Below, in pieces: positions 42,652 to 59,448 of a stretch of 64,000 nt of DNA. Source of the DNA: Spirochaetes bacterium GWE1_32_154 (GTDB lineage Bacteria > Spirochaetota > GWE2-31-10). The notes beneath the pieces were generated by a model that did not search any database, had not been told where the DNA came from, and saw only the letters and a list, made by a program, of their open reading frames with translations. The first letter of the stretch is position 1; each line of letters starts with the position of its first letter. Position numbers and translations under genes: made by a program. The stretch is taken from the NCBI GenBank assembly GCA_001829315.1, contig MIAY01000003.1, forward strand, positions 1-64,000. Direction: 5' to 3'.

Positions 42652-45600
42652 TTAATAAGATTTCATTTTCTTAAGAAAATTTATTACGATCAGATTATCA
42701 CATTCTAATAAGTTATTCGAGATTTCAATATCTTCATGTTTAGTCTTATCTGGAGAGTTTATTCGATTCAAGGAAATTGTTTTAATATAAATGCACAAAT
42801 CTTTGAATGCTTTATTCCTGTTGATATTGTCAAGTATTAAAATATTTTCGACTTCATTTAATACAAGTTCATATTGATTAGAAAAAAAATATGATACTGC
42901 CAGTAGAGTTTTAGGAAACATGATGGAAGTCCAGTCTTCGGTTGTGTAGGTTTGAGGGAAATCTTTTTTTATTTCAATTGATTTGAGCGTAAACTGTATT
43001 GTTTGGGTGTAGTCATTTAAAAGATAATATGCTGTTCCCATATTATAATAAGCCATTGATAACTCATGTTGATATCCGGCTTTTATACAAATATCAACTG
43101 CTGAAAAGAAATATTGTAAAGCGGTATCATATTCTGAAGAAATCAGATAGTTATAGCCGATTTGACTATTTAAACAACTCTGACTATATATATTTCCAAT
43201 TTTAATTGCAAGAGTAAGACTTTTTAAATTGTACCCGAGCATTATATTATTATCTACAATTATATATGTAGTAGCGTAGGTAATATATGATAAAACATCA
43301 ATATCAGATTTTATGAATTGCAATCCATATTCTAGTGTTTCAATAATTAAATCAGTATTATTCTGACCTTGTATTAATCCGGAAACATGGTAAAAATGTG
43401 CTTTATTTAAATAATAAACTGCAGTCAAAACAAAATAGTTTTGTTCTAACTCTATTTTTTCTTTTACCAATTCCGAATAATATTTGCTTGTTTTTAAAAA
43501 AGCCTCTTCAATGTCAGATATAAGTGATTCATAAGAACCAGTGAAAATATAATAAAGCCTCAAATAAGAAGAAAGAATAGTTGTCCAATAATCGAATTTC
43601 ATGAAGTTAGAATTCATATCATTATTCATAGCACTATATGAAGATTTTAAATCCTCGTATGTAATAGTTTTAAAATAATATTGTGTCTGGAGTTTTCTCT
43701 GTATTGTTCTTTGTTTGATAAAATCATTTTTAAATCCGCAATTTATTGTTTTATCAATGCCATCAAGATATTGCTTTTCAATTCCACTAAAACATAGAAA
43801 ATAATACATAAAAAGAACAGTTCTATCCAATTCAGTTTGTAAGTATATACCAAAAAAAGTAAAATAATAATCAGAATCTCTCACTAAAACATTACCATAG
43901 GTTTTATCGATTTCAAATCGCATGGAAATATGAATTGCTTTTTCAAGATTCTTTTGAGCTGAATTAATTTCAAATTTATTTTTATATGCCACTGCTGATA
44001 AAAAATAATACAGCACCGCCTTATCGGGCAAATTACCTTCTTCGTAGTGATACGCAATCATTTCATATGCGTCACCTGTTTCGTATTTTAAAATTAAAAG
44101 TGATTTATCTGCTATTTTTAAATGAATATTCTGTTGAGTTTTATCAAGAATACTTCTGCTTATTGCTTCCTGAGCTGTCTGATGAGTAAATTTAAAAAAT
44201 GACCTTCCGGATTCGTCAAAAATAGTTGCGATATTTAAAAGACTTATTTTGTTATAAAATGTAATTAAATCTGTTTCAGATAAATTTGTTAACTGTTTTA
44301 ATAAACTTATTTCAACTTTCAATCCGCATAATGAAGCGTAACGCAATATTTTTTTTTCTTCATAATCAAGTTTATCAATCTTTTGAAGAATAATATTAAC
44401 AAGACTAACCGGAATAGAACGATAATCATTATTAACAAAATCGTAATGATCAATAATATCTATCGTTTTATTTTCATAAAAGTCATTGATTAATTCATAA
44501 ATGTAATATGGATTACCCATTGTCAGCTGATGAACATATTGTATAACGCTCACTGCTATTTTATTTTTCAAAAATCTTTCACAAAGTATTCCAGTGGTAT
44601 ATTCATCAAGCCCATCTAATTTAATGGTTATCTCTGTATCAACTTTTATTTGATTAATATCTCTTTGAGTAATAATTACAATAATTTTGTAGTCCGTTAA
44701 TATTGTTTGCAACCCGGTTATTATATCGATTGAATCATCATCAAAATTATGAATATCATCAATAAATAGTACTATTGATTTTTTATTATCAAATAATTTT
44801 ATTATAAAATTGATAAAAGCTACTTTAATACTATCTTTATTTATAGTGCCTTCGATTGTGCTATTTTGATTAATGATATCTTTTAATAATTGCTTTATCG
44901 GGTAACAGGATGAATCGGAGTAATACTTGTCACCTGTTAAATAGACTACACCAATGCTTTTATTTTCTGAAGATTTCTCACAAAAATAATGAACTAGAGT
45001 TGTCTTACCAACACCTGAATCACCGTAAATAGTAACTGAATGAAATGTATTTTCTTCTTTTTCAAGTAATTCATTTAATATATCAAGTTCCTGATTTCTT
45101 CCAAATAAATCAATTTCGTTATGTAAATCTGTCTGACTATGTAAATGATCAGATAATTTATATATATGAACGAGGTCTTTTTTATTTTTTAATTTTCTTA
45201 AACCAACTGATTCTATATAAAAAAATGATTTTGTTCTTTTATAGACACTATCAGATATATAAATATCACCGGGATTAGCTTCATGTTGAATTCTTGATGC
45301 AGTATTGACCGTATCTCCAATAACCGTAAATTCCATTCGATTTGAATATCCGATATTGCCAATAACCAACTCGCCGGCATTGATGCCGATTGACATATCA
45401 ATTTCAATATCATGCTTCTTTTTTATCTCAATATTTATTCCATCAATTGATTCCATTATTTCTAAAGCACATAAACAAGCATCTTTTTCAGGTTCATTTC
45501 CATCTATTATTCCAAAAATACATAGAATGCAGTCACCAAGAAATTTATCAATCATTCCATTATATTTTTCTACTTTAGAACCAAGAATTGAAAAAATATG

Positions 45601-45798
45601 ATTCATAACATAAGTAACTTCTTCTGCGTTGAGAAATTCTGACATTGAAGTAAATCCTGAAATATCTGCAAACATGACAACAGCATATCTTTTTTCATTT
45701 ATATCAAAAGGGTCGTTTTGTGATGCAATAATTTTTTCTAATGTAAAATCAGGAAAGAATTTTTGTAGATAATGTATAAGGTTTTCTATTTTTTGCAT
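42652..45798 (-). CDS. Class III nucleotide cyclase with AAA ATPase and TPR-like region
   Basis: A 1048-residue protein. The N-terminal cyclase homology domain (about 15-195) has both metal aspartates (VMFADISGFTSM and DKFLGDCILCIFG) and the VIGDTVNTASR stretch; Lys in the DKFLGD motif and Thr before VIG fit an adenylate cyclase of the bacterial type. An AAA16-like ATPase follows (about 220-520; GDSGVGKTT at about 258, IVLFIDDIHNFDDDS), then helical repeats of TPR type to the end. The architecture equals soluble CyaA-like signalling cyclases. Substrate (ATP or GTP) is inferred. The convergent neighbour gene encodes a cyclic-nucleotide-binding domain. Confidence 0.88.
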   Translation of the reverse strand: MQKIENLIHYLQKFFPDFTLEKIIASQNDPFDINEKRYAVVMFADISGFTSMSEFLNAEEVTYVMNHIFSILGSKVEKYNGMIDKFLGDCILCIFGIIDGNEPEKDACLCALEIMESIDGINIEIKKKHDIEIDMSIGINAGELVIGNIGYSNRMEFTVIGDTVNTASRIQHEANPGDIYISDSVYKRTKSFFYIESVGLRKLKNKKDLVHIYKLSDHLHSQTDLHNEIDLFGRNQELDILNELLEKEENTFHSVTIYGDSGVGKTTLVHYFCEKSSENKSIGVVYLTGDKYYSDSSCYPIKQLLKDIINQNSTIEGTINKDSIKVAFINFIIKLFDNKKSIVLFIDDIHNFDDDSIDIITGLQTILTDYKIIVIITQRDINQIKVDTEITIKLDGLDEYTTGILCERFLKNKIAVSVIQYVHQLTMGNPYYIYELINDFYENKTIDIIDHYDFVNNDYRSIPVSLVNIILQKIDKLDYEEKKILRYASLCGLKVEISLLKQLTNLSETDLITFYNKISLLNIATIFDESGRSFFKFTHQTAQEAISRSILDKTQQNIHLKIADKSLLILKYETGDAYEMIAYHYEEGNLPDKAVLYYFLSAVAYKNKFEINSAQKNLEKAIHISMRFEIDKTYGNVLVRDSDYYFTFFGIYLQTELDRTVLFMYYFLCFSGIEKQYLDGIDKTINCGFKNDFIKQRTIQRKLQTQYYFKTITYEDLKSSYSAMNNDMNSNFMKFDYWTTILSSYLRLYYIFTGSYESLISDIEEAFLKTSKYYSELVKEKIELEQNYFVLTAVYYLNKAHFYHVSGLIQGQNNTDLIIETLEYGLQFIKSDIDVLSYITYATTYIIVDNNIMLGYNLKSLTLAIKIGNIYSQSCLNSQIGYNYLISSEYDTALQYFFSAVDICIKAGYQHELSMAYYNMGTAYYLLNDYTQTIQFTLKSIEIKKDFPQTYTTEDWTSIMFPKTLLAVSYFFSNQYELVLNEVENILILDNINRNKAFKDLCIYIKTISLNRINSPDKTKHEDIEISNNLLECDNLIVINFLKKMKSY

Positions 45799-46068: not shown

Positions 46069-49000
46069 TCACGCCAGCAACAATCTTTTTATAGTATCCT
46101 GCATTGCAGTTTTAAACCCCTCATCTTGAGATATCAAACGATACAAGTCAAGTTCATTTTTGCGTTGTTTGCCCATTACGTCATCAAATATTTTACTAAA
46201 GGCAATTTCTCTGTTTTGAGGATCTGCATTGTCGGCATATTTTTCTTTGAAATCAGTATGTTCTTTCATTTTTTGAGCAAGGTTCACAAATTTTTCTCTT
46301 TGTTCATCCGGTGTAGCTTCCCAACCTTGAAACCATCTTTCGTTAAAACTTTTGATAATTAAATCCAATTCATCTTTTTCAGAATCACCGCCGTGTGCAC
46401 CTCGCGGATTTGAGTTTTGCGGGTCAACTTCTGTTTCTGATGGATCAAGACCAATTGATATGTTTAGTTTTACCCTCTCTAATCCATACGTTGAAAGATC
46501 GATTGAATTTAATAAACCATCTAAGGCATCTTGTTCTTTATCTATAATAATGAGTTTTGGTATCAGAAATTTTAAGAACCAGAAGAGTTTTTCCCATACT
46601 AATACCTCATAAGGCATGATGGAAGACATTTGACCATATATTTTCACAAAATGTTTTGCTTTAATTTTATAATCGGCTTTTGCCTTATCTTCTAATTCTA
46701 ATGTTGTATTAAACCTTTCTGCAGCTATATCAATAATAGGACTTAATTCTTGAGCATTAACTCCTTTAAAATATTTCTCAACAAAATCCTCAACTTCGCT
46801 CCACTCATAAACACCGACATCATCTAAAATAGATTTTAATTCGTGTAGCACATTTATATCCGTTGCTTTACTTAATGAGGTTGCCGTATAAAAAGGATCG
46901 AATGATTTTTTTATGTCTTCTGTTGTATTGTAAAAATCAAGAATAAACAAATCTTCGGTTTTTTTACCGAGTTTATCGGATGAACGATTTAATCTTGATA
47001 AGGCCTGAACAGCTATAACCCCTTGCAGTTTTTTATCAACATACATGGCTGTTAATTTTGGTTGGTCATAACCTGTGAGGTATTTATTAGCAACCACTAA
47101 AATTCGATATTCATCCATATCAAGATAACGGGCAATTTTATCGCTGATGTAACCGGGGTCAGATGAATTTGCAGTATCTAAATTGTCAGAAAAGTCATTT
47201 ATACTCTCCTCTGTATATTCAATACCTTTTATTTTTTTTATTCCTGAAAAAGCAATTGCGATTCTGAAAGGATTGTCTCTTTCATCTAACAACGTTTTTA
47301 GTGCAAAATAATAACTGATGGCTGATTCTATGCTTTGTGTTGCAACAATTGCTTTTGCCTTTCCTTTAAGTTTCTTTGTATTTACCAGTTTTGTTACAAA
47401 GTGCTCAAGCATTATATCTGCTTTTGTTGCAATGGTTTGTTTATTCTGCTCAACATAGGTTCTTAATTTCTTTTGTGCTTTAACAGTATCAAATAATGGA
47501 TTTGCCTGTATCGACTTTTCGATTTCGTAATAACTTTTATAGGTTGTATAATTGGCTAATACATCTAAAATAAATCCTTCTTCTATGGCTTGTTTCATTG
47601 AGTATAAGTGAAACGGTTTAAACTTACCATCTTCCTGTTTAATACCGAAACGTTCAAGAGTATTATTTTTAGGTGTTGCGGTAAATGCCAAATAAGAAGC
47701 ATTACCACGCATTTTTCGTGATTCCATGACTTCTACTATTTTATCCTGTGGGTCTTCTTCCTCATCATTCTCATCGGAAGCATTTCCCATTGCCTGATTC
47801 ATTTTGCCGGCTGCGGTTCCACTCTGACTGCTATGTGCTTCATCTATGATTACAGCAAATCGCTTATCGCTTAAATCAGCAATACCATCCACTATAAATG
47901 GAAATTTCTGAATGGTAGTAATAATAATTTTCTTTCCACTTTCTAAACTGTTTTTCAACTCGGCAGATGAAAAAGCAGGAGCAACAATATTTTTTACTTC
48001 TGAAAACTCTTTGATGTTTTCCCGTAACTGCTTATCTAACAACCGTCTATCCGTTACAACAATCACAGAATCAAACAAAGGGTTTGAAATACCTTTGCTA
48101 CCCGGAATCGTATCAGTTTCAGGATAGGTTTCTATTAATTGATATGCTGCCCAGGTAATTGAATTGGATTTACCCGAACCGGCTGAATGTTGAATCAAAT
48201 AGGTTTGACCCACACCTTTTTTACCGGCATCATTAATAATTTTACGAACTACATCCAATTGATGATAACGAGGAAAATACAAAGTCTTTTTATTTAATGG
48301 GTCGGTATCTTTACCATCAAAGCGGACAAAATGCTGAATAATATTGGCAACACTTCTTCTCGTAAATATCTCATCCCATAAATAAGATGTTTTATGTCCG
48401 AATGGATTAGGCGGATTACCTTTACCAAATAAGGGTTCTTTCTGACCCAGATTGAACGGTAGAAAGTAAGTGTTTACGCCATCCAGCTTAGTTGTCATAT
48501 ACGCTTCATCAGTATCAACTGCGAAGTGAACAATACAACGCCCGAAATTCAATAAGGGCTGTGTTATATCCCGTTTAAATTTGTATTGATTTTGCCCATG
48601 AACTTTTGCATTTTGTCCTGTCCAATGATTTTTTAACTCCATCGTGGCAAATGGTAATCCATTCACAAAAAGCACCATGTCAATTTCTTCACCTGTATTG
48701 GCAAGTGAATAGCGAAGCTGCCGGGTTGCACTAAATTGATTGCTTTCAAAATTATCTTTTACGTTCTCGCTCGAACTTGCTAACGGTAATGGATAGAGTA
48801 AAGTAAAATGTGCATCATCAACATCTAATCCTTTTCGAAACGAACGAAGTATTCCATATTTTTTAATCATACGATCTAATCGTTCAAGAATCTTTAATTT
48901 CCAATCATTTTGTTTCTGCAGTTTAGCTAACTCATCTTTTTGGGTAGCTTGTAAAAAATCCCAAAAACGAAGTTCGTCAATGGCATATTTTGCATTAAAA

Positions 49001-49167
49001 TCTTCGGGCATTCCAATGTAATAACCATTACCGGCACGATAAGTGTAAGCTTTATCGCTTATTGTATAATTAGAAATGTTTTGTTTTTTCAACTCTTCAA
49101 GAGATGTGCCAGTTAGTCTTGTTTCTATGGCTGCTTCAAGAGCTTGTTCGTTAGTTTTAGATGTCAT
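46069..49167 (-). CDS. hsdR: Type I restriction enzyme R subunit HsdR
   Basis: A 1032-residue motor-nuclease subunit. The N-terminal nuclease core is at about 155-178 (EEIDMVLFVNGLPFATMELKN: D...E-x-K). Helicase motifs follow: Walker A QHSAGSGKSN (about 323), DEAH box IDEAHSSQSG (about 439), LAFTATPKN, and late motif VVANKYLTGYDQPKLTAMYVDK. It cleaves DNA after translocation when the HsdM-HsdS complex meets unmodified sites. I use ATG 49167 with AAGGA upstream; an in-frame start at 49185 would overlap the ATPase gene. Last gene of the RM operon; no terminator seen within the 270-bp spacer after it. Confidence 0.94.
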   Translation of the reverse strand: MTSKTNEQALEAAIETRLTGTSLEELKKQNISNYTISDKAYTYRAGNGYYIGMPEDFNAKYAIDELRFWDFLQATQKDELAKLQKQNDWKLKILERLDRMIKKYGILRSFRKGLDVDDAHFTLLYPLPLASSSENVKDNFESNQFSATRQLRYSLANTGEEIDMVLFVNGLPFATMELKNHWTGQNAKVHGQNQYKFKRDITQPLLNFGRCIVHFAVDTDEAYMTTKLDGVNTYFLPFNLGQKEPLFGKGNPPNPFGHKTSYLWDEIFTRRSVANIIQHFVRFDGKDTDPLNKKTLYFPRYHQLDVVRKIINDAGKKGVGQTYLIQHSAGSGKSNSITWAAYQLIETYPETDTIPGSKGISNPLFDSVIVVTDRRLLDKQLRENIKEFSEVKNIVAPAFSSAELKNSLESGKKIIITTIQKFPFIVDGIADLSDKRFAVIIDEAHSSQSGTAAGKMNQAMGNASDENDEEEDPQDKIVEVMESRKMRGNASYLAFTATPKNNTLERFGIKQEDGKFKPFHLYSMKQAIEEGFILDVLANYTTYKSYYEIEKSIQANPLFDTVKAQKKLRTYVEQNKQTIATKADIMLEHFVTKLVNTKKLKGKAKAIVATQSIESAISYYFALKTLLDERDNPFRIAIAFSGIKKIKGIEYTEESINDFSDNLDTANSSDPGYISDKIARYLDMDEYRILVVANKYLTGYDQPKLTAMYVDKKLQGVIAVQALSRLNRSSDKLGKKTEDLFILDFYNTTEDIKKSFDPFYTATSLSKATDINVLHELKSILDDVGVYEWSEVEDFVEKYFKGVNAQELSPIIDIAAERFNTTLELEDKAKADYKIKAKHFVKIYGQMSSIMPYEVLVWEKLFWFLKFLIPKLIIIDKEQDALDGLLNSIDLSTYGLERVKLNISIGLDPSETEVDPQNSNPRGAHGGDSEKDELDLIIKSFNERWFQGWEATPDEQREKFVNLAQKMKEHTDFKEKYADNADPQNREIAFSKIFDDVMGKQRKNELDLYRLISQDEGFKTAMQDTIKRLLLA

Positions 49168-49171
49168 AAAA

Positions 49172-52100
49172 TTAATTCCTTGCATTAAATTCGTAATTTC
49201 TTGGTATTAATGAAAAAGTGTCTGCCTTGATTGCAGTAATTTTATCTTCTACCATTTTTATTGGATTACCAATAAAATGTATGCTACTTGGTGTAACTCT
49301 TACTATTTCGTAATCGATATTTCCAGTTGCAATATTTACTTCAGCTATTGAAATAAAAAAATTATTATTGTTTTCCGAATGAGTTGTTTTAACCTCAACT
49401 AATATTGGTTTACTGTCTTTATAACCAATCAAATCAAAGCTTGAAAATTTATAATGCATGGTTATATAGAAAAATGGAATTAATGATTTTTGTAATTTCT
49501 CGTTATCTTCAATAACTGAAATACAATTTTCTTTATATTTTAAAAGAGAATCGTTTCCAATTTTACTTTTAATTACTTCATATATTTCATCAATCCCTTT
49601 CTTTTTATCTTCACTTGAATAAGCCAAAAAAATATTGATGTAATAATTTAAAACTTCGATTTCTCCTGTTGCCCCTATCTCTTCATAATCTATTTCTGTA
49701 GTTTTACCATCTATACCTGTTTTAAATATCTTTTTAGTAGAATTATGATTTATTATTTCTTGGCGAGAAGAGCCCCCAAGATATGATGTTTCTTTAATTA
49801 CTTTTGTGTTAGCACTTTCCATTTGTTGAAAGATGTTATCTATTTTATCATTTACAATCAATTCTCTTTTATTTATTTCAACTTTTTCAGGGTTATCAAA
49901 TGATTTATAATCTGAAAATTTAAGTTCGATTTGAGATTCAATACTTTTGATAAAATCATCAATTCCTAATTTGTACTTATTGCCTCTTATTTGCTCTAAA
50001 ATTTGACGGGCGTCTTCATTGTTTTTTGATATTAAAAAAGTTTCAAATAAGGCAATTTGATCAAAATATATGTTTTCATCTATCTCTAATTTAAAATTAT
50101 CAAAATATCCTTCAAATATTATTTTTGCTCTTTCTATAATTTCGTTAAATTTTGAAAAACCACACTCCCTTTCTATTTTAACTAAAATATCGCTTTGAGT
50201 CTGTTTATTATAATAATACCAATTATTTGATAATTGACTATAATCTTCAACAATATTTTTTAAAATAATTTTTTGAAATTCAAACCATTTTGTTTGATAA
50301 TCTAGTTTCCACTTTTTACTTATTATATCCAAATCTAAAACATTAAAACTCTTCTCTAATTCAAAAATGTCTTTATGAAAAATCAAAAGTTCTACTAAAT
50401 CTTTTATTGAAGTATTACCAAACAAATATTCTGCAATACCTTCTGCTTTATGAGTAAAGTTTGAATCGGTGCTTAAGTATAATTTACTTTTATTTGAATC
50501 AATTGCATAAACTTTTGATAGAATTGTTGATTTTTCATTAAATAAGATCTCTTGTTGTAAATTATCAACATCTATAATTTCAAGGGATGTTAATCGCTTC
50601 TGTAATTCAGATAAATCAACATTATCATCTAAATAGTTTTTATCTGAATTCTTCGAATAGCTTATGCTTATTAATAAATATATGATTTTTTGCTCAATCA
50701 TTCTTTTTAAGTCATCGTTTATAATTTGATTAGTATAATTAATTTTACCATTTTTAGGAGTAATTATATTCTTTTCAAGATATTCTGGTATATCACTACC
50801 AGAATAGTAGCAAAGTAATTTTATTGCATGGAATTGAGTAAATAAATCAAAATCAAATTTGTTTTTTAGTATTATAAAATCTGTTGTAGATGACCATGAT
50901 AAAATATCATTTTCAATTATCAAATACTGCTTAGAATCATCAAACAAAGAAAATACACTTTGATACAATCTGATTATTTCGTTTTTATTTGAAAAATTAG
51001 TTGCCATTCTCTCAAATAAAATATCTCTATAAGAAGTTGGAAAATCATTATATTTTTTAACTTTTAGGTTTTCAAGTTCATCTTTAATATATTGATTACT
51101 TAGGGTTTCTAAAAATCTATAATTATTATCATTTACAAGTGCTGGATGTATCTGCTTCCCTTCTGGTGTAATAATATAAAAGTTTTTGATTAAACTCTCA
51201 TCAATTTTTTCTTCTTTTCTATCAGATAAAGCTGGAATAAAATCAATTCCAGATTTTAATTTATTGAAAAGTCGTATATCAGTAAATATGTATTTTGATC
51301 TTGTGGAAACTCCTAAAAATCGTAAAAAATCATTTTCTTTATTTTTAGGTATTATTTCAACAAAGAAATCTAAATCAAGCTCATCAAATGTGCATAATTG
51401 AGCTGGTTTATATTTTTGATTATTCGTTTTAAGGAATATTGTAGAAATATTAAAATTTGCCTGATTTATAATGGAGTTATTTTCACGTAAAGTTGAGTTA
51501 TAAGCACGATTAAATCTGTGTGTTATAAAAAATGTTTGATCTTTTTTTGTTTCAAATATTTGGTACAAGCTTTTTATTAGTTCTTTCTGCTGATCTTCTG
51601 AATAAGCCTGTTTTTTATAGTCACCAGAAAAAGAGCATTGTTTATAATATTTCAATAATTCGTTAAAATCATTAAAATCCTTTATTTTTAACCCTTCTTT
51701 TCTAAAATATTCATCAGATATTTCAAATTCAGTTATATTGATACCAAGGAAATTTGGTAATGTAATGGAAGAATCAATTTTGTCACTTTTTTTTCTAAAT
51801 ATTAATTCCGTATCATGTTCAAACCTTAAATTAGGTATAATACATGCACCTAATTTAAGTAGTTCTTCTCCTAATGTTCTTTTAAATATTTCAGATCTTT
51901 TATATTGTTTATATGAATCATCAGTTAACCTATTTATAAGATCACATATATTATTAAAAAATAAATCATGCTCATCTATGTTTTTTTCTTCTCTAAAATA
52001 TTTATCTGCAATTTTAGAAAAAAAAATGGATGCGTTTCCAAAACACCATTCGCTTATTCCAAGAATTTGTCTTGAACAATCATAAATTGGTTTTGAATCT

Positions 52101-53338
52101 TTTAATTCAATTATATTCCAATTAAATTGATTCAATTTAATTTTTTTGATATTTTTGTTTATATATATACAATTTATTTTAGTAAAGTCGTCTATGTATG
52201 AGTTTAATACAAAGAAATATAATTCTACACAAGCTCTCAATAAAACAGTGTTATATTTACCAATAGTTGTGTTTTTATCAAAATTCACATCTGTTCTATC
52301 AACCTTTGTATGAAAGTCTGCATGAAAGTCAACATATTTAAAAGGAGATGGTACTTTTGTTGGCAGATAATTATATAATTTGCCTTCAGGAGTATCTTTA
52401 ATATAAATGGCTACTTTGGGCTTATCAATTGTTATTCCAGCTAATTTTGCTAGATTAATTATTTCTGCATTCGCATTAGCAGAAAAAAAATTACTATCGA
52501 AATCTTCAACTTTTTTAATATAAATTACTCCATTAAAATCGAATTTAATTTCGAAATTCTTATTGTGTTTTAGTTGAACAAATTGAAAGTGAATATTTTT
52601 GATTTCGTCAAACAATTGCCTCACTTTATCGATATCAGAAAATGGAATTTCAATGATAGTTACATATCCGTCCTTAAGCAGTTTACTAACATACAATTCT
52701 CCTTCATTGGTAATATGCAATGGGTAATAGTATCCAGGAACTCCTCTGTTTTTTAAATTATCTTCCTTTTGAATTGCTATTAGATTTTCTTTGATCTTAA
52801 TTCTAATTGATTCCTCAAATTCAATGGGAATTTTTTCTAAATCTTTAAATGAATCATAAAGTCTAAAGCTTATTGTTTCATCAATATTCTCTCTATTGTT
52901 TATGAGTTTCCCTTTAGTGTAAATATTTGTATAATCTGCAATAGAAAAAACCGACTTGAAACCAACACCTTTGTTACCAATACTTTCACTTACATTTTTT
53001 GTTGAAGTTGAAATCGAACAAATTGATTGAAAATCATAACGCTTGAAAATACCAATTTCAGAAGAACCATTTTTATAATCATGATTTGCATTAAAAGTAA
53101 ATTTTTCACCATCATTGGCTACATACAGAGAATTGTCCTTTACTTGAACAAGAATATTCTTATCTGCTTTATCAAATGCATTTTGCAATAATTCATACAA
53201 AACTCTTCCTTGATAATCTGCACTAACTTGATCTATCTGTCCTGAGTTGATTTTAATAGTTTCAATTCCAACATTTTTATAATAGTTGTAATGATTTTCA
53301 AATATCTGATCTTCTAAAGATAGAATATTCTCTTTCAT
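49172..53338 (-). CDS. Sacsin/HSP90-like ATPase with DUF3883-like C-terminal nuclease domain, embedded in RM operon
   Basis: A 1388-residue protein. The N-terminus has a GHKL ATP-binding fold of sacsin type: N box VLYELLQNAFDKADK (about 45), G1 LYVANDGEKF, and G2 IGNKGVGFKSVFSIAD (about 118). A long helical middle has no family I know. The end (about 1220-1370) resembles DUF3883: GATGEIEVLNYY, then SFDLIGYKD and LVEVKTT (about 1300-1312), a D...E-x-K pattern of PD-(D/E)XK nucleases. It overlaps the hsdS stop by ATGA and ends 4 bp before hsdR, so it is an integral operon member. A defence role is inferred from context; the activity is untested. Confidence 0.75.
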   Translation of the reverse strand: MKENILSLEDQIFENHYNYYKNVGIETIKINSGQIDQVSADYQGRVLYELLQNAFDKADKNILVQVKDNSLYVANDGEKFTFNANHDYKNGSSEIGIFKRYDFQSICSISTSTKNVSESIGNKGVGFKSVFSIADYTNIYTKGKLINNRENIDETISFRLYDSFKDLEKIPIEFEESIRIKIKENLIAIQKEDNLKNRGVPGYYYPLHITNEGELYVSKLLKDGYVTIIEIPFSDIDKVRQLFDEIKNIHFQFVQLKHNKNFEIKFDFNGVIYIKKVEDFDSNFFSANANAEIINLAKLAGITIDKPKVAIYIKDTPEGKLYNYLPTKVPSPFKYVDFHADFHTKVDRTDVNFDKNTTIGKYNTVLLRACVELYFFVLNSYIDDFTKINCIYINKNIKKIKLNQFNWNIIELKDSKPIYDCSRQILGISEWCFGNASIFFSKIADKYFREEKNIDEHDLFFNNICDLINRLTDDSYKQYKRSEIFKRTLGEELLKLGACIIPNLRFEHDTELIFRKKSDKIDSSITLPNFLGINITEFEISDEYFRKEGLKIKDFNDFNELLKYYKQCSFSGDYKKQAYSEDQQKELIKSLYQIFETKKDQTFFITHRFNRAYNSTLRENNSIINQANFNISTIFLKTNNQKYKPAQLCTFDELDLDFFVEIIPKNKENDFLRFLGVSTRSKYIFTDIRLFNKLKSGIDFIPALSDRKEEKIDESLIKNFYIITPEGKQIHPALVNDNNYRFLETLSNQYIKDELENLKVKKYNDFPTSYRDILFERMATNFSNKNEIIRLYQSVFSLFDDSKQYLIIENDILSWSSTTDFIILKNKFDFDLFTQFHAIKLLCYYSGSDIPEYLEKNIITPKNGKINYTNQIINDDLKRMIEQKIIYLLISISYSKNSDKNYLDDNVDLSELQKRLTSLEIIDVDNLQQEILFNEKSTILSKVYAIDSNKSKLYLSTDSNFTHKAEGIAEYLFGNTSIKDLVELLIFHKDIFELEKSFNVLDLDIISKKWKLDYQTKWFEFQKIILKNIVEDYSQLSNNWYYYNKQTQSDILVKIERECGFSKFNEIIERAKIIFEGYFDNFKLEIDENIYFDQIALFETFLISKNNEDARQILEQIRGNKYKLGIDDFIKSIESQIELKFSDYKSFDNPEKVEINKRELIVNDKIDNIFQQMESANTKVIKETSYLGGSSRQEIINHNSTKKIFKTGIDGKTTEIDYEEIGATGEIEVLNYYINIFLAYSSEDKKKGIDEIYEVIKSKIGNDSLLKYKENCISVIEDNEKLQKSLIPFFYITMHYKFSSFDLIGYKDSKPILVEVKTTHSENNNNFFISIAEVNIATGNIDYEIVRVTPSSIHFIGNPIKMVEDKITAIKADTFSLIPRNYEFNARN

Positions 53339-54627
53339 ACTTCACTCACTTTTATTTTACCTGTAACCGCACTATTTATTAATGTGGCTTTGTATTCTTT
53401 TAGTTTTTCATTTTCCTGCTCTTTGAGACTGATGGCTGTGGCGATTTTGGTGGTTGCGATTTCGATATAATTAACTATTTCATTTTGTTCATTTATAGGG
53501 GGCACTATTATAGGAAGCCTTTTAAAATCACTATAATTTAGATTTTGTCTTAATCCAGTACCAAATTTATATATGACTTTCGTAGTATCAAGAGAATGAA
53601 TAAAATTGTAAACATAGTTTGAATTATTTCCATTAATTATATTTAAATTCAAGTAAGCGCTTGTAATAATTCCATTATTTATTGCAATTCCGGTTCTTAA
53701 ACTAGTCTTATCATTCTGTAAATCCATACATCGAATTATTATATCACCAGGTTTAATTATTTGGTATGTTTCAAATGATTCAGGAACTAACCCTGTTAAT
53801 TTTTCTTCAGGTTTAATAACAATTTTACCATAACTAAGAGATAGAACAACATCCTCCTTCATTCCAGTATTTTTTGTTTTATTTTCTTTATAAACCCTAA
53901 AACCTGGTAAAATTTCCCACCCTTCCGGCACTTCCCCAATCCATTCCACACCGCTGTCTTTCATTTTCACATTAGGATTCAGCCCTCGTGTAACTGCCTT
54001 GTGAATGAGTATTTGCCTGCGTTCTTTGAGTAGTTCTATTTGCTTTTGTTTGATGCTGATGGCTTTGTCAATCAATGCTGTTTTGCGGTCGAGAAAGGCG
54101 GCGATGGCGGATTGTTCTTCTTTGGGAGGAAGTATTGACGTGATTCTAAAAAAGTCATCAGTATACAATCTCAATCGGCTTTCAATTACACCTGAAGAAT
54201 TTCTTTTAAATTCAGTCTTATATAAATCTATTCTCAATAAGTAATGAAAATACCTACTAACATCGATTGTCTTGAGTCTATAAATTGAATATGCTGGACT
54301 TGTAATGCCATTGAAATTAGAGAAACCCAAACTTCCATTCCATGCCAACATAATATTACTTACTAAATCTCCTTCACATACTTTTTTATATCCTTCTAAA
54401 GTTGTAGCATTAGTAAGCATTCCACCATCGTCTAATCGTTCGGTTTTATTAGTTACACCTGTGTATTGAGAAACAGAAAGTAAATCTTCAGTGCCATCAC
54501 AACTTTTTTCATTTATTTCTTTGAATAAATGTTTTATTCGTGTAGTAGCCCAACCACTCGGAATCTCCCCAAGCCATTCAACTCCAGAATCTTTATAAGC
54601 AGGATATTTGTTATTTTCAGTTTTCAT
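53335..54627 (-). CDS. hsdS: Type I restriction enzyme specificity subunit HsdS
   Basis: A 430-residue specificity subunit with two target-recognition domains (about 15-185 and 230-395), each opened by the conserved DSGVEW-L/I-GE-I/V-P-x-GW stretch, and each followed by a helical spacer (QSAIAAFLDRKTALIDKAI; NEIVNYIEIATTKIATAISL). The two halves are arranged as in standard HsdS, so the target should be bipartite. It separates hsdM from hsdR together with a toxin-antitoxin pair and the ATPase gene. Stop codon overlaps the next start by ATGA. Confidence 0.93.
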   Translation of the reverse strand: MKTENNKYPAYKDSGVEWLGEIPSGWATTRIKHLFKEINEKSCDGTEDLLSVSQYTGVTNKTERLDDGGMLTNATTLEGYKKVCEGDLVSNIMLAWNGSLGFSNFNGITSPAYSIYRLKTIDVSRYFHYLLRIDLYKTEFKRNSSGVIESRLRLYTDDFFRITSILPPKEEQSAIAAFLDRKTALIDKAISIKQKQIELLKERRQILIHKAVTRGLNPNVKMKDSGVEWIGEVPEGWEILPGFRVYKENKTKNTGMKEDVVLSLSYGKIVIKPEEKLTGLVPESFETYQIIKPGDIIIRCMDLQNDKTSLRTGIAINNGIITSAYLNLNIINGNNSNYVYNFIHSLDTTKVIYKFGTGLRQNLNYSDFKRLPIIVPPINEQNEIVNYIEIATTKIATAISLKEQENEKLKEYKATLINSAVTGKIKVSEV

Positions 54628-54722: not shown

Positions 54723-55826
54723 TTACCCTCTCACATATTTTGTATCAATATCATTAAGAACAGTTTTTTTATACTTAACCAATGTTCTATAATCAATTAC
54801 TTTATTAAACTGTAATATCCCAAGAACTACAGAAGAATTAATGTGTAGAGACTCTGCAATCTCAAGTAGACGTTGCTCTGTAAAATAGTTCTTATATGCA
54901 AAGGCTTTTTCTTTTATGTCTGCAACTTTAAGAAGTTCTGCAGCATACTCATCTGCTTCCATCTCCTGATTATTATCAGACTTCTCATCGAGATTATCCA
55001 TGAAACACTCTGTTCCCGAGTGAAGGTGTTTTATTATATGCCCGAGCTCATGTGCTACAGTCCACCAGAAGTTATCAACTCTATCATGTCTGCAAGTAAA
55101 GACAAGTACAGGGTTAGTACAGTCCATAAATGCAGCACCATCAAGAAATGTTTTTTGCAAATGAGAAACCACCAGAAATTTTACACCACATTTAATAATA
55201 TCTTCGATAAAGATATTTATACCGTTTTCTATAACTGTATAATTCGAATAAGACTGTAACAGATGAAGAAGTGCTTCCCGGTTATAATTAGGGACAGAAA
55301 TTTTTGATGATTCTATCTGCACTTTTTTTAGCCATGCTTTCGTATAATATTTAGTATAGTTTTCATCAACTTTTGATTGTCGGGTTAATAATAATTCGGA
55401 GGATGTAAACTGAGAAAAATCAAGTAAATCCTGTCTCCAAAAACCTTTATATGCTTCAATTTGAGACTCTGTAGTTCTATCAAAAAAAAGCCAGCCTTTT
55501 TTTTTCATTTCAAGCATCGGCATATACTTTCTGATCTCTGCTTTTTGCTGTGCATCTTCTTCAGCTTTCCCTTCTTCCTGATTTCGTAAGCGATAATTCT
55601 GATCGAGGTTCAACCAGAACTCAGGGGTTGTATCAAATGCTTTGGCTAACAGTCGTGCAGTTTCAACTGTTATTGATTGTTTATTATTGATTAAAAGACT
55701 AATAGATTTGTCTGACATATTAATAATATCTGCAAGATCTTTATTCGTCCAATTTAATGCTTCAAGGTTTCTTCTGATTATCTGTCCGGGTCCAATATTG
55801 ATATATGGTTTTAATTTTGTACTCAT
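54723..55826 (-). CDS. HigA-like antitoxin fused to ImmA/IrrE-type metallopeptidase
   Basis: A 367-residue fusion. Residues about 10-80 are an XRE/HigA helix-turn-helix (GPGQIIRRNLEALNWTNKDLADIINMSDK, cut here in description) with the antitoxin tail AFDTTPEFWLNLDQNYRL. Residues about 225-330 are a COG2856/ImmA-IrrE zinc peptidase with WTVAHELGHIIKH (HExxH type, about 260) and distal EADEYAAELL. It starts 3 bp after the stop of the higB-like toxin gene, with the ribosome site GGAGG at that stop. It should bind the operator upstream of higB. The peptidase half could cleave its own repressor domain on a signal (inference from ImmA/IrrE). Confidence 0.85.
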   Translation of the reverse strand: MSTKLKPYINIGPGQIIRRNLEALNWTNKDLADIINMSDKSISLLINNKQSITVETARLLAKAFDTTPEFWLNLDQNYRLRNQEEGKAEEDAQQKAEIRKYMPMLEMKKKGWLFFDRTTESQIEAYKGFWRQDLLDFSQFTSSELLLTRQSKVDENYTKYYTKAWLKKVQIESSKISVPNYNREALLHLLQSYSNYTVIENGINIFIEDIIKCGVKFLVVSHLQKTFLDGAAFMDCTNPVLVFTCRHDRVDNFWWTVAHELGHIIKHLHSGTECFMDNLDEKSDNNQEMEADEYAAELLKVADIKEKAFAYKNYFTEQRLLEIAESLHINSSVVLGILQFNKVIDYRTLVKYKKTVLNDIDTKYVRG

Positions 55827-55828
55827 GT

Positions 55829-56140
55829 TTAACCTCCGTAGTGATTGGTTATATCTTCAATTCCTATTATACCGACAATCATTTTTTCATCCTGCCAATC
55901 GATTGTTAATTCAAGTCTCCACTTCCTGTCAAGTCTGACAGAGTAGCGGTTTTCAGTATTTATCAGTTTCTCAAAGTTCAATGACGGTTGTTTCCATAAA
56001 TCATAGATATTTATAGCAGCCTCAAGTATGGCTACAACTTCAAAAAAAGAATAAACTACCTTTTTATCAAGTTTTAGTTTTGTGCTTTTACCGGTAACAT
56101 ATAAATCTTCTATTTTTTTACTATTAAAAATTACTTCCAA
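55829..56140 (-). CDS. higB: HigB-like toxin (RelE superfamily)
   Basis: A 103-residue RelE-fold protein of the plasmid-maintenance-killer type: short N-terminal region, LEKLINTENRYSVRLDRKWRL core (here FEKLINTENRYSVRLDRKW) and C-terminal VGIIGIEDITNHYGG. HigB proteins cut mRNA on the ribosome. The start codon is TTG (56140), preceded at 5 nt by GGAG. Toxin before antitoxin is the higBA order. It lies 117 bp downstream of hsdM with its own promoter and operator. Confidence 0.85.
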   Translation of the reverse strand: MEVIFNSKKIEDLYVTGKSTKLKLDKKVVYSFFEVVAILEAAINIYDLWKQPSLNFEKLINTENRYSVRLDRKWRLELTIDWQDEKMIVGIIGIEDITNHYGG

Positions 56141-56257: not shown

Positions 56258-58621
56258 TTAAAGTCCCAAAATTTCACGGATTAATCCATCACTTTCTTTT
56301 TCCAATGCCAAAATATCAGCCGATACATCTTCGATACTTCGCAATGGTTTATGGCGATAGAAGTATTTATTAAAACTTATTTCGTAGCCAATTTTGGTCG
56401 CATCTATATTTATCCAGGCTTCCGCAACATGCGGTTTTACTTCCCGTAAAAAGTAGTCAAATATATTTTCTTTCAGCGGTACATTTTCAGTATCCCGTAA
56501 ATCGCTTTCAGTTTCATATTCAATATATTCACCTTTTTTATCAGTAGCAAAATATCCGTAATGAGACAGTTGATCTTCTTTGCAGTCTAAATGGGATAGT
56601 AATTTCTCTAGTTTATCACCGGTTAGTTTAGTTATACCTTTTATTATTTTTTCGGCTGAAGCATCGTACCAACTCACTGCATTTAATATGGCATTTTTTT
56701 CGGATGAAGTGAGTTTTACCTTTTTAACTTTTAATACTTCATCTACCTTTTCTTTAAAAATATTAAAATCGTTGTATTCATCATTGCCAATAGTTTGCAT
56801 CAACTCAGTTGCAATATGTAACAATTCCAAATGTTTTGTCCAAAGTGCTTCGCTCAGTAAAATTTTACTTTGTTTTGCATTGAGATTCAGTTCATTTTTT
56901 TCGCACCATTCAGTAATTTCTTTTTCGTGTTGAGTAATGTCAGTATAAACTTTTTCCCCATAAGTTTCAAAAGCCCAAGCCATCGGTTCCCGCAAGCTTT
57001 TATCAAATCGAAGGTCAGCAATTTTTTCAGCTGTAAACTGTGCCTTTAATCGTTTTGGTCGTTCAATGGTTACTTTATAATATCCAAAATCAGTATTATC
57101 AAAAAGTTTTGAAGCAATACCTTCTTCCTCTTTCGTTTCAGGATTGATAACACGATCAACGGTTTGCATATTTTCATATACCGATACAATTTCTCGAATA
57201 TGCTCTGGCGCAAACTCACAATTTTTATTGCCTAAGTTTTTACGAAGTTTACGAAATAATAAACCGGCATCAATCAATTGCACTTTTCCTTTTCGATGTT
57301 CAGCTTTGCTGTTACTCAAAACCCAGATATATGTAGTAATGCCTGTATTATAAAATAAGTTATTTGGCATTTGCACAATAGTTTCCAGCCAATCGTTTTC
57401 AATAATGTATCTTCGTATATTACTTTCACCACCACCGGCATCACCTGTAAATAAGCTACTGCCATTATGAACCGAAGCAATACGGGAACCTAACGGACTT
57501 TGACTAAGCGGTTTCATTTTGTTTACCATTTCCATCAGGAAAAGTAATTGACCGTCAGATGATCGCGGAGTAGCATCTGCATCTTCTTCAATACCCCAAT
57601 AGTTTTTCAGTTTTATCTGAAAACGAGAATCTATAATATCTTTACCATCTTTAATGTATTTTAATTCACTTGCCCATGACTTACCATAAGGCGGATTTGA
57701 AAGCATATAATCAAATTTAGTTCCGGAAAACTCATCGGTTGAAAGTGTCGAACCCACACGAATATTCTCAGGATTATTCCCCTTAATCATCATATCCGAT
57801 TTACAAATGGCGTATGTTTCATCGTTTATTTCCTTACCATACAAATACACATCACCTTTTGCTTTTATTTCGCCTTCTTCATCCTTTATAAAGTTCTGAG
57901 CTTCCGTAAGCATACCGCCACTGCCACAAGCCGGGTCATAAATGGTCATTACAGGAGGAAGTTTATCTTTTACCGGTTCAAAAATAATATGTGTCATTAA
58001 ATCAATAACTTCTCGTGGTGTAAAATGCTCTCCTGCTTCTTCATTATTGTCTTCATTGAATTTTCGAATCAATTCTTCAAACACATACCCCATTCCCAAG
58101 TTTGTTAATGGAGGAAGCTTTCTACCATCAGGATCATTTTTTTCAAATGGAGTAAGATTTATATAAGGTGAAGTGAATTTTTCCAGTACATTTAATAAAA
58201 CATCTTTCGATGCCATGTGCCTGACTTGGCTTTTGAGTTTAAATTTTTCTATAATCTCTTTCACATTTCCGCTAAACCCATTCAAATAATCTTCGAAATT
58301 GGCCTGCAGGATTTGTTGATTATTAGTTGCTGTATCATGCAATCGTTGTAAAGTCCATTCACTGGTATTGTAAAAAACATAGCCACTTGCTTGTCTTAAT
58401 CCGTTTTCATCCCATTCAGTAAACTTAGCTACTTGCTTTTGGAAAACCAATTCTTCCAACACTGCTGCTTTAGTAGGTTCAAGCAAAGCATCGAGCCGGC
58501 GAAGTACTACCATTGGTAAAATCACATCCCGGTATTTTCCTCTTACATAAATATCTCGCAAACAATCGTCTGCAATTGCCCAAATGAAGGATATTGATTT
58601 GTTGTGTACTGCTTGATTCAT
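56258..58621 (-). CDS. hsdM: Type I restriction enzyme methylase subunit HsdM
   Basis: A 787-residue N6-adenine methyltransferase. The HsdM N-terminal helical domain is at about 10-140; SAM motif I is DPACGSGGM (about 232), and catalytic motif IV is NPPYGKSW (about 310). Helical C-terminus of about 300 residues is longer than in the 500-residue HsdM proteins, as in a known subgroup. It methylates adenine at the site chosen by HsdS and protects host DNA. First gene of the RM operon. Confidence 0.94.
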   Translation of the reverse strand: MNQAVHNKSISFIWAIADDCLRDIYVRGKYRDVILPMVVLRRLDALLEPTKAAVLEELVFQKQVAKFTEWDENGLRQASGYVFYNTSEWTLQRLHDTATNNQQILQANFEDYLNGFSGNVKEIIEKFKLKSQVRHMASKDVLLNVLEKFTSPYINLTPFEKNDPDGRKLPPLTNLGMGYVFEELIRKFNEDNNEEAGEHFTPREVIDLMTHIIFEPVKDKLPPVMTIYDPACGSGGMLTEAQNFIKDEEGEIKAKGDVYLYGKEINDETYAICKSDMMIKGNNPENIRVGSTLSTDEFSGTKFDYMLSNPPYGKSWASELKYIKDGKDIIDSRFQIKLKNYWGIEEDADATPRSSDGQLLFLMEMVNKMKPLSQSPLGSRIASVHNGSSLFTGDAGGGESNIRRYIIENDWLETIVQMPNNLFYNTGITTYIWVLSNSKAEHRKGKVQLIDAGLLFRKLRKNLGNKNCEFAPEHIREIVSVYENMQTVDRVINPETKEEEGIASKLFDNTDFGYYKVTIERPKRLKAQFTAEKIADLRFDKSLREPMAWAFETYGEKVYTDITQHEKEITEWCEKNELNLNAKQSKILLSEALWTKHLELLHIATELMQTIGNDEYNDFNIFKEKVDEVLKVKKVKLTSSEKNAILNAVSWYDASAEKIIKGITKLTGDKLEKLLSHLDCKEDQLSHYGYFATDKKGEYIEYETESDLRDTENVPLKENIFDYFLREVKPHVAEAWINIDATKIGYEISFNKYFYRHKPLRSIEDVSADILALEKESDGLIREILGL

Positions 58622-58830: not shown

Positions 58831-59448
58831 TTAAAAATCCGTAGCGGGTTTTCTACTATTTTTATTCTTCTTTATCCATCTATGAAGATTTACTTCGGTT
58901 GTACCATACCGTTCCACAATAAATTTTTGAGTTGACCCGTTCGATAGTAACGCAAATATTTCCGGTTTATACTTATCTAATTTACTCTTACCACTACCCT
59001 TTGGCCTGCCTAATTTAATTCCCATAGCTTTCTTCGCTTGTAAGGCTTCTTTCGTTCTTTTGGAAATTAAATCTTTCTCTATTTCAGCTGCCATCGAAAA
59101 TGCGATTGCAATAATTTTACTCTGAATACTATCATCTAATTGCCAATTACCTTTAACAGAATAAATATTTATACCTTTCTGAGAAGAAACCGACAGAATC
59201 TCCATACAATCGAGCATGCTTCTGCCTAACCTTGATAATTCACTTACGAGTATATTATCGCCTCTTTGTAATTCATCAATAATTTCACATATTTTTCGTT
59301 TCTTCCACGGTACTTTCCCTGATATTTTTTCTTCAACAAAATGCACCTGCCCCAACTCTTTACTTTGAGCAAGTTTTAAGATCTCTGCTTTATTTTTTTC
59401 GAGATCCTGATCGACAGTTGAAACTCTGAGATAAGCCATGGTTTTCAT
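58831..59448 (-). CDS. Serine recombinase (resolvase/invertase family)
   Basis: A 205-residue recombinase. N-terminal catalytic domain: nucleophile Ser in YLRVSTVDQ, SRLGRSMLD and arginine-rich LISKRTKEAL; C-terminal HTH in residues about 155-195 (SNGSTQKFIVERYGTTEVNLHRWIKK). The layout matches the Pin/Mpi-type invertases and Tn3 resolvases (about 190-210 residues). It sits upstream of hsdM on the same strand, separated by 209 bp. Targets cannot be read from the sequence; a palindrome overlapping its promoter region suggests autoregulation. Alternative: remnant of a mobile element, though the protein is intact. Confidence 0.88.
   Translation of the reverse strand: MKTMAYLRVSTVDQDLEKNKAEILKLAQSKELGQVHFVEEKISGKVPWKKRKICEIIDELQRGDNILVSELSRLGRSMLDCMEILSVSSQKGINIYSVKGNWQLDDSIQSKIIAIAFSMAAEIEKDLISKRTKEALQAKKAMGIKLGRPKGSGKSKLDKYKPEIFALLSNGSTQKFIVERYGTTEVNLHRWIKKNKNSRKPATDF

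Follow-up and report, generated by a model that had tools for sequence, protein, structure and literature searches.

The operon and its embedded gene

We analysed a stretch of 64,000 nucleotides from Spirochaetes bacterium GWE1_32_154 (contig MIAY01000003.1, positions 1 to 64,000; hereafter, the window) that carries a type I restriction-modification (RM) operon with a large additional gene between hsdS and hsdR. This open reading frame (ORF), at 49172-53338 on the minus strand, encodes 1388 amino acids (aa) from its ATG and, by the profile and motif evidence given below, belongs to the TmtA (Tiamat) family; the gene is denoted tmtA here. The order of transcription is hsdM (58621-56258), a HigB-like toxin gene, a HigA/M78 gene, hsdS, tmtA and hsdR. 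The features of the operon are the following.

56258..58621, minus strand: hsdM, type I N6-adenine methyltransferase, 787 aa (Pfam N6_Mtase 1.2e-59 and HsdM_N 3.5e-23; PADLOC MTase_I 2.4e-264)
55829..56140, minus strand: HigB-like toxin, cargo of the hsdM-hsdS gap (Pfam HigB-like_toxin 9e-4, under the curated cut-off; PHROG 'toxin of TA system' 2.7e-7)
54723..55826, minus strand: HigA-like antitoxin with a C-terminal M78 peptidase domain, resembling PD-Lambda-2_B (HTH_3 1.8e-10; Peptidase_M78 4.9e-6; PADLOC PD-Lambda-2_B 4.9e-48; TIGR02607 above cut-off)
53335..54627, minus strand: hsdS, specificity subunit, 430 aa (Pfam Methylase_S 3.4e-13, in two stretches; PADLOC Specificity_I 2.2e-111)
49172..53338, minus strand: tmtA (Tiamat), 1388 aa (PADLOC TmtA PDLC03970 1.1e-258; SACS and NOV_C above Pfam cut-offs on sub-regions)
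49168..53347, minus strand: extent of the insert compared with L152, a related operon with an empty slot (blastn of the operons; junction sequences)
46069..49185, minus strand: hsdR, restriction/translocase subunit, likely start 49167 (SWI2_SNF2 3.4e-26; HSDR_N 7.9e-14; NCBIfam hsdR 2.8e-58)

The three hsd genes of the operon look intact and match their respective families strongly in profile searches. Motifs were checked in two of them: the hsdM product contains the DPACGSG and NPPY motifs, and the hsdR product, which also matches the PADLOC HsdR profile (1.8e-36), contains the nuclease motif (DMVLFVN at aa 169, MELKN at aa 182) as well as the Walker A and DEAH motifs. The position of tmtA between hsdS and hsdR and its start within the hsdS stop codon, both proposed in the original prediction, were confirmed: the tmtA ATG (53338-53336) overlaps the hsdS TGA (53337-53335) as ATGA. 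At the other end, the tmtA stop codon TAA occupies 49174-49172, and the longest hsdR ORF begins with an in-frame ATG at 49185, within tmtA. Homologues instead support the ATG at 49167 as the start (MTSKTNEQALE, as in L152), which is preceded by an AAGGA located within the 3' end of tmtA, and it is for this start that the predicted distance of 4 bp between tmtA and hsdR holds. Because of the gene overlaps on both sides, we expect tmtA, which is single-copy in its genome, to be co-expressed with the RM genes: it should share a transcript with hsdS and hsdR, and its translation is probably coupled to theirs.

The PADLOC TmtA profile PDLC03970 matches nearly the entire protein (E 1.1e-258; residues 10-1380 of the protein, positions 34-1537 of 1552 in the profile). 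We take the PADLOC TmtA to be the Tiamat system of Millman et al. 2022, which was reportedly named there as a single-gene anti-phage system (TmtA). At the N-terminus, a sacsin-type GHKL ATPase with the N box ELLQNAFD at aa 49 and the G2 box GNKGVGFKS at aa 121 exceeds the cut-offs of both NF047352 (66.3 bits, cut-off 50) and SACS PF25794 (38 bits, cut-off 32.8), so the sacsin/HSP90-like ATPase recognised earlier in this region is upheld. So is the DUF3883-like end: NOV_C PF13020, presumably the former DUF3883, scores 26.8 bits (cut-off 22.1) in a scan restricted to the last 189 aa, although it is not reported in the full-length scan. The motifs of this region are GATGE (aa 1222), FDLIGY (aa 1301) and VEVKTT (aa 1314). 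DUF3883 has been described as a novel restriction endonuclease (REase) domain (PMC3710099).

The middle part of about 1000 residues, previously thought to match no family, indeed has no Pfam coverage, but it lies inside the match to the TmtA profile, so the statement holds for Pfam and not overall. In Pfam, no GmrSD domain (GmrSD_N, or DUF262) matched the window TmtA or its sub-regions; a sequence search of the PDB with TmtA returned lizard sacsin alone (E 0.08), a search of viral contigs returned no relatives, and tblastn against plasmids returned N-terminal matches only, at less than 30% identity. The name 'TmtA' was not found in use among the listed matches from the searchable literature. 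Taken by its profile matches and motifs, the protein is a member of the TmtA (Tiamat) family, with the ATPase and DUF3883 motifs intact.

TmtA and other cargo in the hsdS-hsdR gap

That the gene might stand next to hsdS in this genome alone was set beforehand as the refuting test; the adjacency recurs in three other loci, L002, L116 and L117. L002, a contig of a Bacteroidales metagenome-assembled genome, carries hsdM, AbiD, hsdS and a TmtA gene, and ends before hsdR; its TmtA is 51% identical to that of the window. We consider it very improbable that tmtA is decayed or non-functional cargo: what is known of the gene is limited to its sequence, which leaves some room for this possibility, but the 1388 codons free of stops, the full set of intact ATPase and DUF3883 motifs and the identity to the L002 protein all argue against it.

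The hsdS-hsdR gaps of L116 and L117 contain different TmtA types, namely, PDLC03964 (1.5e-281) in L116, where HsdR is 72-74% identical, and PDLC03967 (1.3e-286) in L117, where HsdR is 62-63% identical. The C-termini of these two types are like that of the window TmtA, with VEVKTF and IEVKSR motifs; NOV_C is matched at 4e-10 in the L116 protein and at 7e-4, under the cut-off, in the L117 protein. Given that the window, L116 and L117 proteins resemble one another weakly and around the ATPase, the three types most likely represent separate insertions. Genes of the TmtA family are also found without type I RM genes nearby, in L065, L173 and L174. Matches to PDLC03970 in three further genomes (G329, G670 and G594) were rejected as true orthologues and not counted, because these proteins are longer, are similar only around the ATPase and have no RM genes nearby.

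The contents of the gap were surveyed with the window HsdR as the query in 396 genomes of the phylum of L002 and 393 genomes of its order, as well as in plasmids. This yielded 59 usable operons including the window, some of which end at contig ends; L109, a near-copy of L108, was excluded from the HsdR tree. The gap classes were set by hand from the results of hidden Markov model (HMM) searches, with much of the class 'other', the RhuM rows, one AlbA row and parts of L159 and L163 assigned by ORF length and sequence alone. At least one ORF occupies the hsdS-hsdR gap in 33 of the 59 operons, and the gap is empty or nearly so in the other 26 (-11 to 406 bp). Along the HsdR tree, the content of the slot changes at least 23 times, and TmtA appears as three separate gains.

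Other defence genes recur in the same position. The gap contains GmrSD pairs in L107, L112, L113 and L153, a DUF4268 gene that is the PADLOC candidate PDC-S11 in L108, SIR2 with HerA in L138 and SIR2 with an adjoining gene in L163; AlbA/HATPase genes are also among the cargo identified with HMMs. The operons closest to that of the window differ in this respect as well: L112, the nearest relative (HsdR 91%, HsdM 88% identical), has a GmrSD pair in the slot; in L152 (HsdR 89%, HsdM 87%) the slot is empty, with hsdS and hsdR overlapping by 11 bp; and L153 (HsdR 83%, HsdM 85%) has a GmrSD pair plus other genes. Judged from these comparisons of gene content, the hsdS-hsdR gap of one RM subfamily is an interchangeable cargo slot.

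Two ORFs in the slot without a PADLOC match, of 221 aa (L118:13170-13835; no Pfam match either) and 210 aa (L117:10464-11096), are candidates for undescribed embedded genes. The type I RM operon at L158:2785-13166 carries cargo in both gaps, with a ThsA-like SIR2 gene and, by eye, RloA/RloB-like pairs. The hsdM-hsdS gap is likewise variable, containing HigBA/M78 in the window, AbiD in L002, a DUF1016 nuclease in L106, PDC-S02 in L152 and RhuM in L118; a kinase-helicase is also among the cargo of this gap in the relatives.

The boundaries of the tmtA insertion can be read from the comparison with L152. In blastn, the DNA homology between the two operons stops at 53348 and restarts at 49167, with 8 bp between these points in L152; the difference thus amounts to the tmtA gene plus a few bases, with hsdS and hsdR both unbroken. 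The GC content is 24.8% in tmtA and 33-35% in the hsd genes, a difference suggesting that tmtA has a separate history. Cargo exchange has left its trace in two Escherichia coli plasmids, where a GmrSD pair has taken the place of the end of the DUF4268 gene. The hsdM genes and most of hsdR are ~99% identical between L107 and L108, but in L107, the first part of the DUF4268 gene is kept and followed by the GmrSD pair, and the first ~150 bp of hsdR differ from those of L108, a pattern that points to homologous recombination through the shared flanks.

Such a slot might simply be a tolerated insertion point, where a gene gains promoter-free expression and transfer along with a selfish RM system, with no functional complementarity between the two. 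The mixed contents of the gap, among which are ORFs that appear unrelated to defence (by eye, a REP-type transposase-like ORF in L115, GxxExxY-like and unassigned ORFs), and the many empty slots are compatible with passive hitchhiking of this kind. Much of the identified cargo, however, consists of defence genes (GmrSD, SIR2-HerA, TmtA, PDC-S11), and we consider this explanation unlikely. TmtA could still be an active defence under this explanation, which differs only on why tmtA is there.

Autonomous or RM-coupled action of TmtA

The combined evidence makes it likely, in our assessment, that tmtA is a Tiamat-family anti-phage gene in the hsdS-hsdR cargo slot, co-expressed with the RM genes and functioning as an autonomous second defence rather than as a helper of HsdR. 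Among the roles suggested in the original prediction, those of a second effector or a back-up defence are the ones favoured by the full-length TmtA match and by the other defence genes that occupy the slot of the sister operons. Independent action is suggested by the existence of both sister RM operons that lack tmtA and TmtA relatives that lack RM genes nearby. The third suggested role, a helper that loads or restrains HsdR, fits poorly with the operons that have 89-91% identical HsdR and 87-88% identical HsdM and whose gap is either empty or filled by a GmrSD pair, as well as with the TmtA-family genes located away from RM.

In a broader form, TmtA could be a functional partner of RM, that is, a loader, a restrainer or a guard that responds with its nuclease once it senses inhibition of HsdR or HsdM, such as that by DNA mimics. 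The tight overlaps at both ends of tmtA are in line with such a partnership, as is the finding that one RM subfamily has three different TmtA types in this gap, but the closest sister operons do without TmtA, TmtA relatives exist without RM, and adjacency to the RM genes is not specific to TmtA, given that other types of genes share the slot. We regard a partnership as improbable. A more specific version seems quite unlikely as well: TmtA would monitor the type I RM complex (or the DNA products of the complex) and trigger the DUF3883 nuclease once restriction is blocked or escaped by a phage, and the three diverged TmtA types would have converged on the gap for this reason.

Under the favoured interpretation of TmtA as an autonomous second defence, the protein would be made whenever RM is made, via co-transcription and coupling, and would act alone, as a second defensive line. 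Its HSP90/sacsin-like ATPase part may sense or clamp a phage-derived signal or nucleic acid; the C-terminal DUF3883 PD-(D/E)XK-like domain could then be activated by ATP-driven closure and would cut DNA (or RNA). This ATP-gated activation is suggested by the domain logic. The RM system would take unmodified DNA, and TmtA would take the phages that evade or inhibit RM. New cargo would most likely arrive in the slot by homologous recombination via the conserved 3' end of hsdS and the 5' end of hsdR.

Several points weigh against this interpretation. How Tiamat works is described as unknown (PMC10482375). Some functional preference for RM could lie behind the insertion of TmtA three times in the same gap of a single RM subfamily. 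L002 is the one relative of the exact type that was found, and because of this rarity, the case for independence of this particular subtype from RM is indirect. Finally, lack of a PD-(D/E)XK fold in the C-terminal domain was the second refuting test set beforehand; the DUF3883/NOV_C profile match and the FDLIGY...VEVKTT motif are present, but an AlphaFold2 (AF2) model of the C-terminal 259 residues, built from an alignment of two sequences, has a predicted local distance difference test (pLDDT) score of 37.7, too poor for assigning a fold. The model of residues 1-1199, from an equally small alignment of two sequences, is likewise too poor for this purpose (pLDDT 30).

Known embedded systems and neighbouring features

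The window gene shares with Tiamat (TmtA) the full-length profile match, the N-terminal HSP90/sacsin-like ATPase and the C-terminal DUF3883/NOV_C domain, but differs in residing inside a type I RM operon, in belonging to the subtype PDLC03970 with one close relative (L002), and in being known from sequence alone. In plant metagenomes, all 'Tiamat' matches fell on plant contigs (PMC12409356); these are probably false positives because TmtA and the plant NO VEIN share the NOV_C domain.

Three other embedded systems occupy the equivalent position. TgvAB, a GmrSD-like pair located between hsdS and hsdR in VPI-2 of Vibrio cholerae, protects when HsdR is inactivated (PMC11411939). Its position in the type I RM operon is equal to that of tmtA, and L112, the closest RM relative of the window, has a GmrSD-type pair there, but the families are unrelated, TmtA being without a DUF262/GmrSD domain. 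In the RptR island of enteropathogenic E. coli (EPEC), DarTG2 lies between the hsdS and hsdR genes of a type I RM system, and the site has been proposed as a potential defence recombination hotspot (PMC12255303). The position and the logic of embedding are similar; in contrast to tmtA, the cargo is a toxin-antitoxin system, and the EPEC island is controlled by the RptR repressor, whereas none was recognised in the window. The type I RM locus of Campylobacter jejuni, as cited in PMC11411939, has the accessory gene RloF between hsdR and hsdS; going by that citation, RloF is of the DUF262 family, in contrast to the GHKL-DUF3883 organisation of TmtA.

Defence genes embedded in the hsdS-hsdR gap are thus already known (TgvAB, DarTG2, RloF), and the TmtA family is already named. 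A 2024 preprint by Payne et al. (10.1101/2024.01.29.577857, as cited in PMC12255303) reportedly deals with embedded defence genes under the notion of guilt by embedding. No TmtA in an hsdS-hsdR gap was found in the searchable literature, although this preprint may contain it, nor did that literature yield either three separate TmtA insertions or an exact comparison with an empty site.

The present analysis assigns the 1388-residue gene, previously without a family, to an anti-phage family that already has a name. Closely related operons differ mainly in the cargo and in the specificity subunit, and the resulting near-matched sets, in which similar RM systems are combined with GmrSD, TmtA or nothing, offer a test of embedded defences as independent, complementary or RM-coupled. 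The hsdS-hsdR slot is also usable for finding new defence genes, several of its occupants having no PADLOC match.

Two features adjacent to the operon were observed. A gene for an Mpi-family serine invertase (58831-59448) lies directly upstream of hsdM; phase variation by this invertase was considered and rejected, as no convincing inverted repeats were seen around hsdS or the promoter region. On the other side, 270 bp downstream of hsdR and on the same strand, the gene at 42652-45798 encodes a class III nucleotide cyclase fused to an AAA_16 ATPase and tetratricopeptide repeats (TPRs). The cyclase part matches the PADLOC Pycsar cyclase models; the overall architecture, which we take to resemble that of signal transduction ATPases with numerous domains (STAND), presumably sets this protein apart from Pycsar.

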